Below are positions 22,784 through 51,036 of a stretch of 64,000 nucleotides of DNA, in pieces (within the stretch, counting starts at the first letter, position 1; each line of letters opens with the position of its first letter). The notes beneath the pieces are model-generated. The model worked only from the letters and a program-made list of their open reading frames with translations. It was not told where the DNA came from and did no database searches. Source of the stretch: Arboricoccus pini (GTDB lineage Bacteria > Pseudomonadota > Alphaproteobacteria > Geminicoccales > Geminicoccaceae). The position numbers and the translations under genes are program-made. The stretch spans positions 62,001 to 126,000 of the forward strand of contig NZ_FYEH01000001.1 in the NCBI RefSeq assembly GCF_900187945.1, in the 5' to 3' direction.

Positions 22784-23893
22784 ATGGTCGTCGCTTCCGC
22801 CGCCTTCAGCCTCGCCGCCCATCTTGCCGAGCGACCGCCGGTCTGGTCGTCGGAGGAGGACGACATCCTCCTCTGCCGGGCCGTAATTCAGGAGACGCAC
22901 GATGTTCGTACGTTCGTCTTTTCGGCGAGGCAGCCGCGCAGCTTTCGCTATGAACCCGGCCAGTTCTTGACCTTTGAGCTCGAGATCGACGGCCAGCCGA
23001 TCAACCGCTGCTATACGATCGCCTCGACGCCGACTAGGCCGGACCTTCTCTCGATCACCGTCAAGCGGGTGCCGGGCGGCCCCGTATCCAACTGGCTGCA
23101 CGACAATCTGCGTCCCGGTATGGCCTTAAGGGCGGTCGGACCCATGGGCGAGTTCAGCAGCCTGCGGCATCCGGCCGGAAAGTATCTTTTTCTCTCGGGC
23201 GGCAGCGGCATCACCCCCCTCATGTCGATGGCGCGCGCCTATTACGATCTGGCATTGGGCCAGGATATTGTCTTCCTGCATTCGGCGCGCTCGCCTGACG
23301 ATCTTATTTTCCGCCATGAACTGGAGCTGATGGCCAGCCGGGATCGCCATTTCTCCTTCGTGCCGGTCTGCGAGGGTCCGGGCACCGGTCAGCCCTGGCA
23401 CGGCTATCGCGGGCGGCTGCAGCTGCTGATGCTGCGGCTGGCGGTACCCGACTTCATGGAGCGCACGGTCTTCACCTGCGGGCCGGCGCCCTACATGGCG
23501 GCGGTCCGTGCGATGCTGCAGTCGGCGGCATTCGACATGCAGCGCTACCACGAGGAGAGCTTCGACTTCGGCAGCACCGAGGGGCAACTTGCGCCCGAGC
23601 CTGAGACGCTTCCGGCGGCACCGGTCGCTGCGACCTTCAAGGTGGCCTTCACCAAGTCCGGCAAGACCCTTGAGGTGCGCGCCGACCAGACCGTCCTGGA
23701 CGCGGCGCGCAAGGGCGGCGTGCGCCTGCCCTCATCCTGCAGCAAGGGGCTTTGCGGGACCTGCAAGTCGAAGCTGCTCGAGGGAGAGGTCGACATGAAA
23801 CACCAAGGCGGTATCCGCCAGCGCGAGATCGATTCCGGGCTGGTGCTGCTCTGCTGCTCGAGGCCAAAGAGCGACCTCGTGGTCGATCGCTGA
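22784..23893 (+). CDS. gbcB: Glycine betaine demethylase reductase subunit GbcB
   Basis: Electron-transfer partner of GbcA, 369 residues: FAD domain (INRCYTIAST at about 73-82), NAD(P) domain (FLSGGSGITPLMSMARA), then a plant-type [2Fe-2S] ferredoxin domain with Cys319, Cys324 and Cys327 (CSKGLCGTC) and a final Cys near residue 358. It passes electrons from NAD(P)H to the Rieske centre. The start may be ATG 22784 or GTG 22772, which overlaps the gbcA stop. The last 23 coding bases are the first copy of a 31-base tandem repeat that runs past the stop codon. Confidence 0.88.
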   Translation: MVVASAAFSLAAHLAERPPVWSSEEDDILLCRAVIQETHDVRTFVFSARQPRSFRYEPGQFLTFELEIDGQPINRCYTIASTPTRPDLLSITVKRVPGGPVSNWLHDNLRPGMALRAVGPMGEFSSLRHPAGKYLFLSGGSGITPLMSMARAYYDLALGQDIVFLHSARSPDDLIFRHELELMASRDRHFSFVPVCEGPGTGQPWHGYRGRLQLLMLRLAVPDFMERTVFTCGPAPYMAAVRAMLQSAAFDMQRYHEESFDFGSTEGQLAPEPETLPAAPVAATFKVAFTKSGKTLEVRADQTVLDAARKGGVRLPSSCSKGLCGTCKSKLLEGEVDMKHQGGIRQREIDSGLVLLCCSRPKSDLVVDR

Positions 23894-23963
23894 GGAAAGC
23901 CGCGACCTCGTGGTCGATCGCTGAACGAAATCGCGACCTTGTAATTGATCACTGAGGCGCCGC
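23871..23963 (+). repeat. 31-base tandem repeat, three copies, copied from the gbcB 3' end
   Basis: Copies start at 23871, 23902 and 23933. The first 23 bases, including the TGA, are identical in copies 1 and 2; copy 3 has diverged. Each of the first two copies can fold CGACC-TCGT-GGTCG into a small hairpin, and copy 3 has lost the stem. Copy 1 encodes the last residues of GbcB; the others lie downstream of the stop. The pattern suggests tandem duplication followed by decay. Confidence 0.9.
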
Positions 23964-48161: not shown

Positions 48162-48536
48162 GGTGAGATTTGCCCTCGACTGCTGATCCCGGCCGCCCCG
48201 TTTGAGCTCAGGGACGCCCAGGCAAGTTGTCGCCGAGGACGTACCGGCCGACGCGCGGCCGGTCGAGGAGTGGAACCGCTGGCTTGGGGAAAATTCGGCG
48301 CTCTCCGCCAGCTGCCCGACAACCGTGATCGTGCCCGGTCCGAACGACGCCCGGAAGACCTGCCGTCTTGCGTGTTCCGCGCTCGCCGAATCCCGCGAAA
48401 CCGGCCAACGGCGAAGCTGCCAGCCGGCAAGGATCGGCCCCCGCCGATGGCGAGGAAGGGGACAATTTGACTACTCGCGGCGATGGCGGCGGGTTGATTA
48501 GACGCTTCGGGGCGTGCCCAGGCCGACGATACCTGC
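48162..48536. other. Intergenic region downstream of the PLP decarboxylase
   Basis: This 375-base gap lies between the converging ends of the decarboxylase gene and the secreted-protein gene. Frames on both strands are composition-driven. I see no clear terminator, repeat or promoter here. Confidence 0.5.
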
Positions 48537-49223
48537 TCAGTGTTTGGCCAGCAGGCTGCGCCGGTAGAAGCCGGTGAAGGTCACGTTTGCCCCGCCACAC
48601 TGATCATTGTCCCGGACCAGGAGATAGGGGCCGCGCCGGACCATGTTCACCCGGCAGTCGAGTTCGTCGCCGGCTTCGAAGGGGAGCGTCTCGCCATCGC
48701 CCACCGTGAAGGCGATGGCGCCATTAACAGGACTGGCCACACCGTCGAGATTGCCGGTGTGGACGCTGCCGCCGCGCCATACAGCATCGCCGTGGATCGC
48801 GAAGCCGTTGCCCTTGGACTGGATGACGATGTCGTTATCGTACATCGTCCATGTTCCCACCCAGTCCCGGGGACGCTGCACATCAGCAGGGGCGGTCTCC
48901 AAGGCCGCCATCGGCAGCCATTCATTCAGAGCCTTGCCGTTGGCTGTGACGTAGCCCGTGCAGACATAGGCCCCCTGCGCATCGCCGGTCAGCACAACGT
49001 CGCCTTTGACGAGATAGCTTTTCGACTGACATCCCGCACTCTCGTTGGGACAGCCTTTGACGAGTGCATCGTCCTCGACGAAGTGCAGCTTGGCGGGCTC
49101 CACGATCGCGACATTAGCATTCGTCGCATTGATGTCGCCAAAACCACATCCGGCCGATACCGCCGTCGGCATGACGGCTGCCGCGACCAAGAATAGACTG
49201 ATCGACGCCAGGCAAAGCTTCAT
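48537..49223 (-). CDS. Secreted cysteine-rich unknown protein
   Basis: A 228-residue protein with a classical signal peptide (cleavage after AVSA, about residue 24) and six cysteines in the mature part (GCGF, GCPN, GCQS, VCTG, DCRV, QCGG), which could form three disulfides in the periplasm. A central VKGDVVLTG...YVTANGKALNEW region resembles a bacterial SH3-like module. No family is recognised. Its upstream region carries the three 30-base hairpin repeats at 49280. Confidence 0.7.
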   Translation of the reverse strand: MKLCLASISLFLVAAAVMPTAVSAGCGFGDINATNANVAIVEPAKLHFVEDDALVKGCPNESAGCQSKSYLVKGDVVLTGDAQGAYVCTGYVTANGKALNEWLPMAALETAPADVQRPRDWVGTWTMYDNDIVIQSKGNGFAIHGDAVWRGGSVHTGNLDGVASPVNGAIAFTVGDGETLPFEAGDELDCRVNMVRRGPYLLVRDNDQCGGANVTFTGFYRRSLLAKH

Positions 49224-49279
49224 ATTCGCTCATGGTCCGGTTTCGAGGATCAGTTGGGCACGATGTTCGGCGCAGTCCC

Positions 49280-49369
49280 CGAAGATGGGCCTCACGGCCT
49301 ATCCTGCCCCGAAAATGGGTCTTGTAGCCCATTTTCCCTCGAAAATGGGTCTTGCATCCCATTCGCCTC
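49280..49369. repeat. Three 30-base hairpin repeats
   Basis: Units start at 49280, 49310 and 49340. Each folds on itself: unit 1 GATGGGC/GCCTATC, unit 2 AAAATGGG/CCCATTTT (49312-49319 with 49328-49335), unit 3 AATGGG/CCCATT. The right arm of unit 2 also pairs perfectly with the left arm of unit 3 (49328-49335 with 49342-49349), so two folds compete. The repeats sit upstream of the secreted-protein gene and downstream of the hydrolase gene. The 30-base period equals ten codons, but the translated frames are not credible. Confidence 0.85.
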
Positions 49370-49462
49370 ATGGATCACAGGCCGACCATCACCGTCAAGC
49401 CAGTTCCTCTGACGGAAGTTTCCTCCGCCGCCCATGCCGTCGGTAGGTCCCCGGCACTGCAG

Positions 49463-50290
49463 CTAGGCGGCGGCCTCGATGATGAGGTCGCTCACTTCCC
49501 GCGCATGCGAGATCAGCGACAGATGTGAGGCCCGCAGCTCGATGGTCTTGGCCTTCATGCGGGCGGCAAGGAAGCGCTCGAACTCGGGTGAGATCGTCCG
49601 GTCGTTGGTCGAGACGGCATACCAGGACGGCTTCGAGTGCCAGGCTGCCTCGGTGGTCCTGGCATCAAAGAGCGTGTCAGCGATCCTGCCCTGACAGGCA
49701 TAGAGGACGCGTGCCCTGGCAGGCTCGATGTCACCGGCGAAATCCTCGAGGAAGGCAGCCTCGCTCAGTTGGGCAAAGCCGCCCGCATGGACGAGCCCGG
49801 CACTGGCTGGCGGCTTTGGATAGCGTGCCGCCAGGGACGCGAAGTCCTCGCCGGCGTCCGGCGCGCGCGCCGCCACATAGACCAGCGAGGCCACCTTCGG
49901 GTGGACGCCCGCCTCGCTGATCACCGTGCCGCCCCAGGAATGGGCGACCAGGACCGTCGGGCCGTCCTGGAGATCGAGGATGCGCCGCGTGGCGGCGACG
50001 TCGTCGGCCAGCGAGGTCAGCGGGTTCTGCACGGCTGTGGCATTCAGGCCCGCTCGCTGCAGCCGACCGATGACGTCGCTCCAGCAGGAGCCGTCGGCAT
50101 AGGCGCCGTGCACCAGGACCGCGTTCTTGATGCCGTGCCCGGCGGATGCCGGCCTTGCCGCATGGGCGGTGCCGGCATCCAGGGCGAGAAGGCCGCTAAG
50201 TCCAGCCAGCGCCAGGCCAAAGCCGCGCCGGCTGGCACGGATGCCATCTGTTGCCTGGCCGGGCGCGGGGATGGTGTCGATCGGGGTCAT
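49463..50290 (-). CDS. Tat-exported alpha/beta hydrolase
   Basis: A 275-residue alpha/beta hydrolase with a twin-arginine signal (SRRGFGLALAG, Arg21-Arg22). The nucleophile is Ser118 in AHSWGG, the oxyanion HG is in VHGAYADG, and the catalytic His is near HLSLISHA close to the end. The closest known relatives are esterase-like (EstC/RutD-type) proteins; the substrate is unknown. It faces away from the ECF sigma gene, 170 bases between the starts, so both may share a promoter region. Confidence 0.85.
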   Translation of the reverse strand: MTPIDTIPAPGQATDGIRASRRGFGLALAGLSGLLALDAGTAHAARPASAGHGIKNAVLVHGAYADGSCWSDVIGRLQRAGLNATAVQNPLTSLADDVAATRRILDLQDGPTVLVAHSWGGTVISEAGVHPKVASLVYVAARAPDAGEDFASLAARYPKPPASAGLVHAGGFAQLSEAAFLEDFAGDIEPARARVLYACQGRIADTLFDARTTEAAWHSKPSWYAVSTNDRTISPEFERFLAARMKAKTIELRASHLSLISHAREVSDLIIEAAA

Positions 50291-50460
50291 GCGCTCTACT
50301 TCCATGGGTTCACGTGCGAGCGGCCGCCAAGTGCGGTCCGAATGCCTATTCGCGCCGGCAGCGGCGATCGCACGGGTCTCACGCGTTCGTGATCGATCCT
50401 GACCCGGCCGCGCCGGCTTGGCGCATTGCGTGACGGGGCCGGGCGGCGAATGGGTGGTCC

Positions 50461-51036
50461 ATGGATGACTGGGAGCAGAGCTGGTCGGCGGCGATGCGGG
50501 CCGAGCGACGGGGCGATGCCGCCACCTATGCCTGGCTGTTGGGCGAGGTGGCGGCCTATCTGCGGCCGCGCCTTTGCCAGCGCCTTGCCCGACTGGGGCA
50601 GGGGCCGGACCTCGCGGAGGACATCCTGCAGGAGGTGCTCTTGGGCATTCACCTGAAGCGCCACACCTGGGAGGTGGACCGGCCCTTCACGCCCTGGCTG
50701 GCCGGCATCGTCCGCTACAAGCTCATGGATGTGACGCGCCGCGTGCGGCGCGAGGCCGGGCGCCGCTACGTGCCCGAGGTGGCGGAGTGGTTCGAGGCGA
50801 TCGCAGCACCGATCGAGGACCTGGACGCTCGGCTCATCGACAAGGAGAAGCCCTTGGCCGACCTGCCGCACAAGGAGAGCGACGTCGTTCGGGCGTTGGC
50901 GATCGAGGGCGCTTCGGTCGGGACCACGGCCCGGCGTCTGTCGATCAGCGACGGTGCCGTGCGCCTTCTCTTCCATCGGGCGCTCGCGCGCATCCGCGGC
51001 CGTGCTGTCCAGGCGCTCAAGGATATCGGTTCATGA
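50461..51036 (+). CDS. ECF RNA polymerase sigma factor
   Basis: A 191-residue extracytoplasmic-function sigma factor with region 2 (EDILQEVLLGIHLKRHTW, then PWLAGIVRYKLMD) and region 4 (LSISDGAVRLLFHRALARIR). It overlaps the next gene, a NrsF-type anti-sigma factor, by four bases; this pairing is that of the SigF/ECF16-like group known from Caulobacter, where it answers metal and oxidative stress. I cannot identify its target promoter here. Confidence 0.9.
   Translation: MDDWEQSWSAAMRAERRGDAATYAWLLGEVAAYLRPRLCQRLARLGQGPDLAEDILQEVLLGIHLKRHTWEVDRPFTPWLAGIVRYKLMDVTRRVRREAGRRYVPEVAEWFEAIAAPIEDLDARLIDKEKPLADLPHKESDVVRALAIEGASVGTTARRLSISDGAVRLLFHRALARIRGRAVQALKDIGS

Follow-up and report, generated by a model that had tools for sequence, protein, structure and literature searches.

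Structure of the locus

The window, a stretch of 64,000 nucleotides from the forward strand of Arboricoccus pini contig NZ_FYEH01000001.1 (positions 62,001 to 126,000), carries at 49280-49369 three abutting imperfect palindromes of 30 bases each, as read directly from the sequence. This array lies inside a 239-base spacer between two minus-strand genes, a hydrolase gene (49463-50305) and a secreted-protein gene (48537-49223). The three units were characterized by sequence, folding and column comparison, while the short downstream segment listed with them comes from prediction only.

49463..50305, minus strand: alpha/beta hydrolase gene (Abhydrolase_6), upstream, its stop 93 bases from the array
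49340..49369, no strand: unit 3, CGAAAATGGGTCTTGCATCCCATTCGCCTC, in which the palindrome's outer pairs are gone (CCCATTCG)
49310..49339, no strand: unit 2, CGAAAATGGGTCTTGTAGCCCATTTTCCCT, palindrome GAAAATGGG-TCTTGTAG-CCCATTTTC
49280..49309, no strand: unit 1, CGAAGATGGGCCTCACGGCCTATCCTGCCC, the most diverged, hairpin GATGGGCC-TCAC-GGCCTATC
49241..49248, minus strand: segment CCTCGAAA, predicted to pair with the unit 2/3 junction and to flip the minus-strand fold
48537..49223, minus strand: gene for a secreted Cys-containing protein, downstream, its start 56 bases from the array; signal peptide identified by eye

Sixteen of the 30 columns of the unit are invariant, 11 of these within the first 13 columns, and a left block, CGAARATGGGYCT (11 of 13 columns), is common to all three units. 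The original prediction of three 30-base hairpin repeats was borne out, and the array exceeds chance, with a local tandem score of 18 against a best score of 15 among 20 Markov-resampled windows. When the best triple repeat in the window was taken for each period from 15 to 60, the array ranked second by fraction of matching positions. Neither TRF nor a second repeat finder listed it, despite the identity of the first 15 bases of units 2 and 3. A CRISPR array was ruled out, as the units abut and have no unique spacers between them. A coding repeat was also dropped, the 85-aa minus-strand and 133-aa plus-strand ORFs that run through the array being without a Pfam match. No Rfam family matched over the array, and no description of it was found in those parts of the literature that the search reached.

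The position just upstream of a gene for a secreted cysteine-containing protein was confirmed, and of the ECF sigma pair said to lie nearby one ECF-type sigma gene was confirmed (50461-51036, plus strand). The secreted protein belongs to no Pfam or NCBIfam family, its single PDB match was insignificant (E 0.06), and one weak match was found in 59 other genomes. Distant homologues (26-34% identity) are encoded on plasmids of Methylobacterium, Rhizobium, Devosia and Edwardsiella. Relatives of the hydrolase at 48-49% identity occur in three of 30 other family genomes (limit 1e-30). Searches for the hydrolase in these 30 genomes and for the secreted protein in the 59 revealed no syntenic locus.

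Predicted pairing within and between units

Folded singly as RNA, units 1, 2 and 3 gave energies of -13.4, -13.3 and -7.6 kcal/mol on the plus strand and -11.9, -12.3 and -8.0 kcal/mol on the minus strand. Between units 2 and 3, pairing of right arm R2 with left arm L3 (R2-L3) was predicted at -13.1 (plus) and -12.8 (minus) kcal/mol, against -13.3 and -12.3 kcal/mol within unit 2, which upholds the claim that the unit 2 arm pairs equally well with its neighbor. Units 1 and 2 do not share this near-equality, R1-L2 pairing being weaker (-5.4 and -4.3 kcal/mol). Among 300 random tandem palindromes, the within-unit minus between-unit energy averaged -0.2 kcal/mol (sd 1.8), and 78% fell within 2 kcal/mol. 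Because near-equal rival folds are common in such random constructs, the near-equality is expected from the architecture itself.

The units had also been said to differ by changes that keep pairing. One base pair is indeed altered on both sides between units (A-U to G-C), but no excess of such changes over shuffles is seen among the three units. Unpaired cells numbered 5 of 30 on the plus strand (10 pairs) and 3 of 27 on the minus strand (9 pairs); paired cells over the three units thus came to 83.3% (plus) and 88.9% (minus), compared with 81.1% and 86.4% in shuffles. In this comparison of three units only, the observed pairing was reached by 169 of 500 shuffles on the plus strand and by 170 of 500 on the minus strand. 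The fold energy excess was z -3.4 on the plus strand and z -2.0 on the minus strand.

Ensemble predictions for the array placed between random flanks favored R2-L3 (probability >0.5) in 179 of 200 cases on the minus strand and 191 of 200 on the plus strand. Plus-strand stretches containing the whole array kept R2-L3 in 23 of 25, the two exceptions beginning at 49240. On the minus strand, the predicted fold depended on the stretch chosen. With 5' ends at 49372-49500, R2-L3 led (probability >0.5) in 44 of 49 stretches with 3' ends at 49310-49250, while the unit 2 hairpin led in all 28 stretches with 3' ends at 49240-49200 (probability at least 0.93) and in six of seven with the 3' end at 49150. 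When the 5' end lay at 49600, the unit 2 hairpin led in six of seven shorter stretches and in all five longer ones. Two mutually exclusive folds, as originally proposed, are borne out in prediction on this strand (44/49 against 28/28), less clearly so with the 5' end at 49600. The view that the folds do not compete, drawn from minus-strand stretches that all ended at or below 49230, was dropped, being contradicted by the centroid of the stretch ending at 49270.

The predicted minus-strand flip can be traced to segment 49241-49248. With the real 56 downstream bases (49224-49279), the unit 2 hairpin had a probability of 0.998, and six bases of the segment paired with the array part 49325-49359 at 0.95 or more; masking the segment brought R2-L3 back to 0.84. 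Among 300 dinucleotide shuffles of 49224-49279, the unit 2 hairpin exceeded 0.5 in 19 and 0.9 in four, and some 8-base complement to the array was present in 96 of 1000 shuffles. The flip caused by 49241-49248 therefore appears somewhat unusual, on a test that was chosen post hoc, after the stretches had been seen to differ in fold. Accessibility of the start region was little altered by one crude mask, which broke a unit 2 arm and so did not give a clean two-state comparison.

Occurrence of the unit and of other tandem repeats

Three copies of the unit motif are present in the 4.07-Mb genome (99.3% complete), each of them in the array, and the whole-genome search proposed earlier thus yielded no second locus. 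Looser palindromes with one mismatch stand singly at five other places in the genome, and more appear with two mismatches. The exact palindrome with its 8-base loop was found in one of 31 family genomes, namely A. pini itself, the one genome representing its genus. In the class it was found in 10 of 385 genomes, once in each and counting A. pini; the other nine had no clear array, two of them giving weak tandem scores of 9. Among the blastn matches listed for the spacer, all were short, with E about 3 or more (for plasmids, the best 20 of 300 records), and a phage or plasmid origin was dropped. The sequence ATGGGTCTTGNANCCCAT had one match in each of eight viral stretches, and these were taken for chance, without a computed expectation. 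A likeness in Sphingobium fluviale (L038) was judged by eye to be chance, its surroundings being another repeat cluster.

A tandem-repeat scan of 1,257,789 bases, or 31% of the genome, gave 27 rows that were merged by hand into 16 places. Five of the 16 have a period of 29-31, with unrelated sequences, and three of these five cross the stop codon of a gene. The array is one of the five, and the other four are as follows.

Window 23871-23955: tandem repeat of period 31, crossing the stop codon (23891-23893) of a ferredoxin-reductase gene
L168:10860-10919: hairpin in two 31-base copies (GTCGGCGCCAGCCGAC), across the stop of a gene for an M20 peptidase
L191:6490-6616: perfect repeat of period 29 between convergent ORFs, in 4.4 copies that cross the 3' end of a FUSC-type gene with its stop codon (GALTPA*)
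L196:18899-18952: hairpin of 30 bases duplicated in frame (GDGTSPTLPAGDGTSPTL) at the 3' end of yidD, in the C-terminal tail

In the first of these, three copies of 30-31 bases repeat the last codons and the stop (DLVVDR*), the third copy reading DLVIDH*. A length-specific duplication tendency, at periods of 29-31, is possible in the scanned 31% of the genome. An out-of-family genome (G058) has tandem hairpins with periods of 34 and 56, besides a repeat of period 31; because it also carries such repeats, they are not special to A. pini. Another genome, G005, was excluded from the comparison, 86 of its 100 rows coming from one repeat cluster. Elsewhere in the A. pini genome, at L176:6610-7830, about nine iterons resembling TCGGTACATCATTCACA (by eye) come after a gene for a replication initiator of the RPA type (PF10134, E 5e-73). 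With a gene for shikimate dehydrogenase close by, this is an origin of plasmid type in an apparently chromosomal place.

Origin and possible roles of the array

The array most likely arose by local tandem duplication of a small palindrome, a reading held with moderate confidence. A short, imperfectly symmetric sequence between the two minus-strand genes would have been copied in tandem, probably by replication slippage or misalignment, which a hairpin can help, and the three resulting 30-base units would have diverged afterwards. The array would then have no dedicated function, and its two folds would be a by-product of repeating a palindrome. The copies are adjacent, diverged and confined to one locus. 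Local duplication is favored because of this single locus, the lack of a visible excess of pair-keeping changes among the three units, and the duplications of similar period elsewhere in the genome. Counted against it are the conservation of the left block, which could mean selection, the unusual flip segment (4 of 300 shuffles), and the looser single palindromes at five other places, which make a palindrome of this type less than unique to the array. Bacterial intergenic tandem repeats with an inverted-repeat core likewise consist of head-to-tail, diverged units at one locus; nothing tested clearly separates the array from them, and the flip predicted to depend on 49241-49248 adds a feature of uncertain weight.

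Other explanations would give the array a function or a different origin. The six alternating half-sites, with centers 16 and 14 bases apart, might form an operator array for a putative regulator of the secreted-protein gene. The position upstream of 49223, the left block kept in every unit, and the AT-rich symmetric half-sites in a window of 65% G+C point that way. Tandem operators and iterons likewise consist of symmetric half-sites set at regular intervals before a gene. However, the unit, found at a single locus, could serve only one spacer, no regulator was identified, and a scan of 48400-50600 found no sigma-70-type promoter. Nothing array-like lies upstream of the three plasmid homologues of the secreted-protein gene that were read, of eight. 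The array further differs from known operators and iterons in its diverged, poorly kept right halves and in having no known binding protein, whereas the clear iterons at L176 adjoin an RPA initiator. An operator array is unlikely. A role of the hairpins in marking or protecting the hydrolase transcript at its 3' end is doubtful: they lie on the transcribed strand 93 bases past the hydrolase stop, and unit 2 has an A-tract, a short G+C core and a T-tract, but the terminator scan of 48400-50600 was empty at its threshold, the core is small, the loop is 8 bases, the T-tract has just four T, and the next gene is co-directional. A dispersed element of the REP/BIME type, mobilized by a RAYT transposase, is highly improbable. 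REP/BIME elements, which are linked to RAYT, are likewise short intergenic palindromes, paired or in tandem. A looser array pattern, AAATGGG..CCCATTT..AAATGGG, matched 107 stretches in wider genome contigs; many of these are dispersed palindromes in Massilia, Duganella and relatives, but mostly with a different core (GGGGTCAGACCCC, GGGGACGTACCCC and similar, by eye). The array differs in standing at one locus of a nearly complete genome, where it failed the copy-number test. As the genome has no further copy of the unit motif, and none of the 30 other family genomes has the exact palindrome, it was concluded that this is not a REP-type dispersed element. Separately, many paired palindromes with a REP/BIME look, for example AAATGGGGTCAGACCCCATTT and AAATGGGGACGTACCCCATTT, occur among L013-L119 (Massilia sp. 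TS11, Duganella, Pseudoduganella and others).

The original prediction likened the array to a switch. Such an RNA switch would have the minus-strand transcript form the nested R2-L3 stem first, after which pairing of 49241-49248 at the unit 2/3 junction would lead to the unit hairpins. Tandem palindromes often have rival folds, and these alone are therefore weak evidence of a switch. The dependence of the predicted minus-strand fold on the stretch nevertheless raised this reading from very unlikely to unlikely and lowered local duplication and two of the rivals. In its favor, the array alone prefers R2-L3, and the predicted flip falls between 3' ends at 49250 and 49240, is undone by masking the segment, and is matched by few shuffled downstream sequences. 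Against it, the flip is a prediction examined post hoc, the unit hairpins are already ahead in most shorter stretches when the 5' end is 49600, the three units show no covariation, an Rfam match is lacking, and the fold energy excess is larger on the plus strand although both flanking genes are on the minus strand. The two predicted folds of the earlier proposal thus stand, but the analysis found no signal, no conserved relative and no predicted influence on the start region to accompany them. Attenuators and riboswitches also have mutually exclusive folds decided by a downstream segment; unlike them, the array, whose folds are predicted, has no conservation, ligand or terminator. In a related model, quite unlikely, the array would act within leader or spacer RNA as a nested stem (R2-L3 inside L2-R3) flipped by the segment 17-26 bases upstream of the start of the secreted-protein gene, and transcript length or a factor bound to the segment would set the fold.

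The array mainly provides a worked caution against taking the equal-strength rival folds of tandem palindromes for a switch. Should the flip at 49241-49248 also take place in the cell, the locus would illustrate how an RNA switch can arise de novo through simple local duplication.
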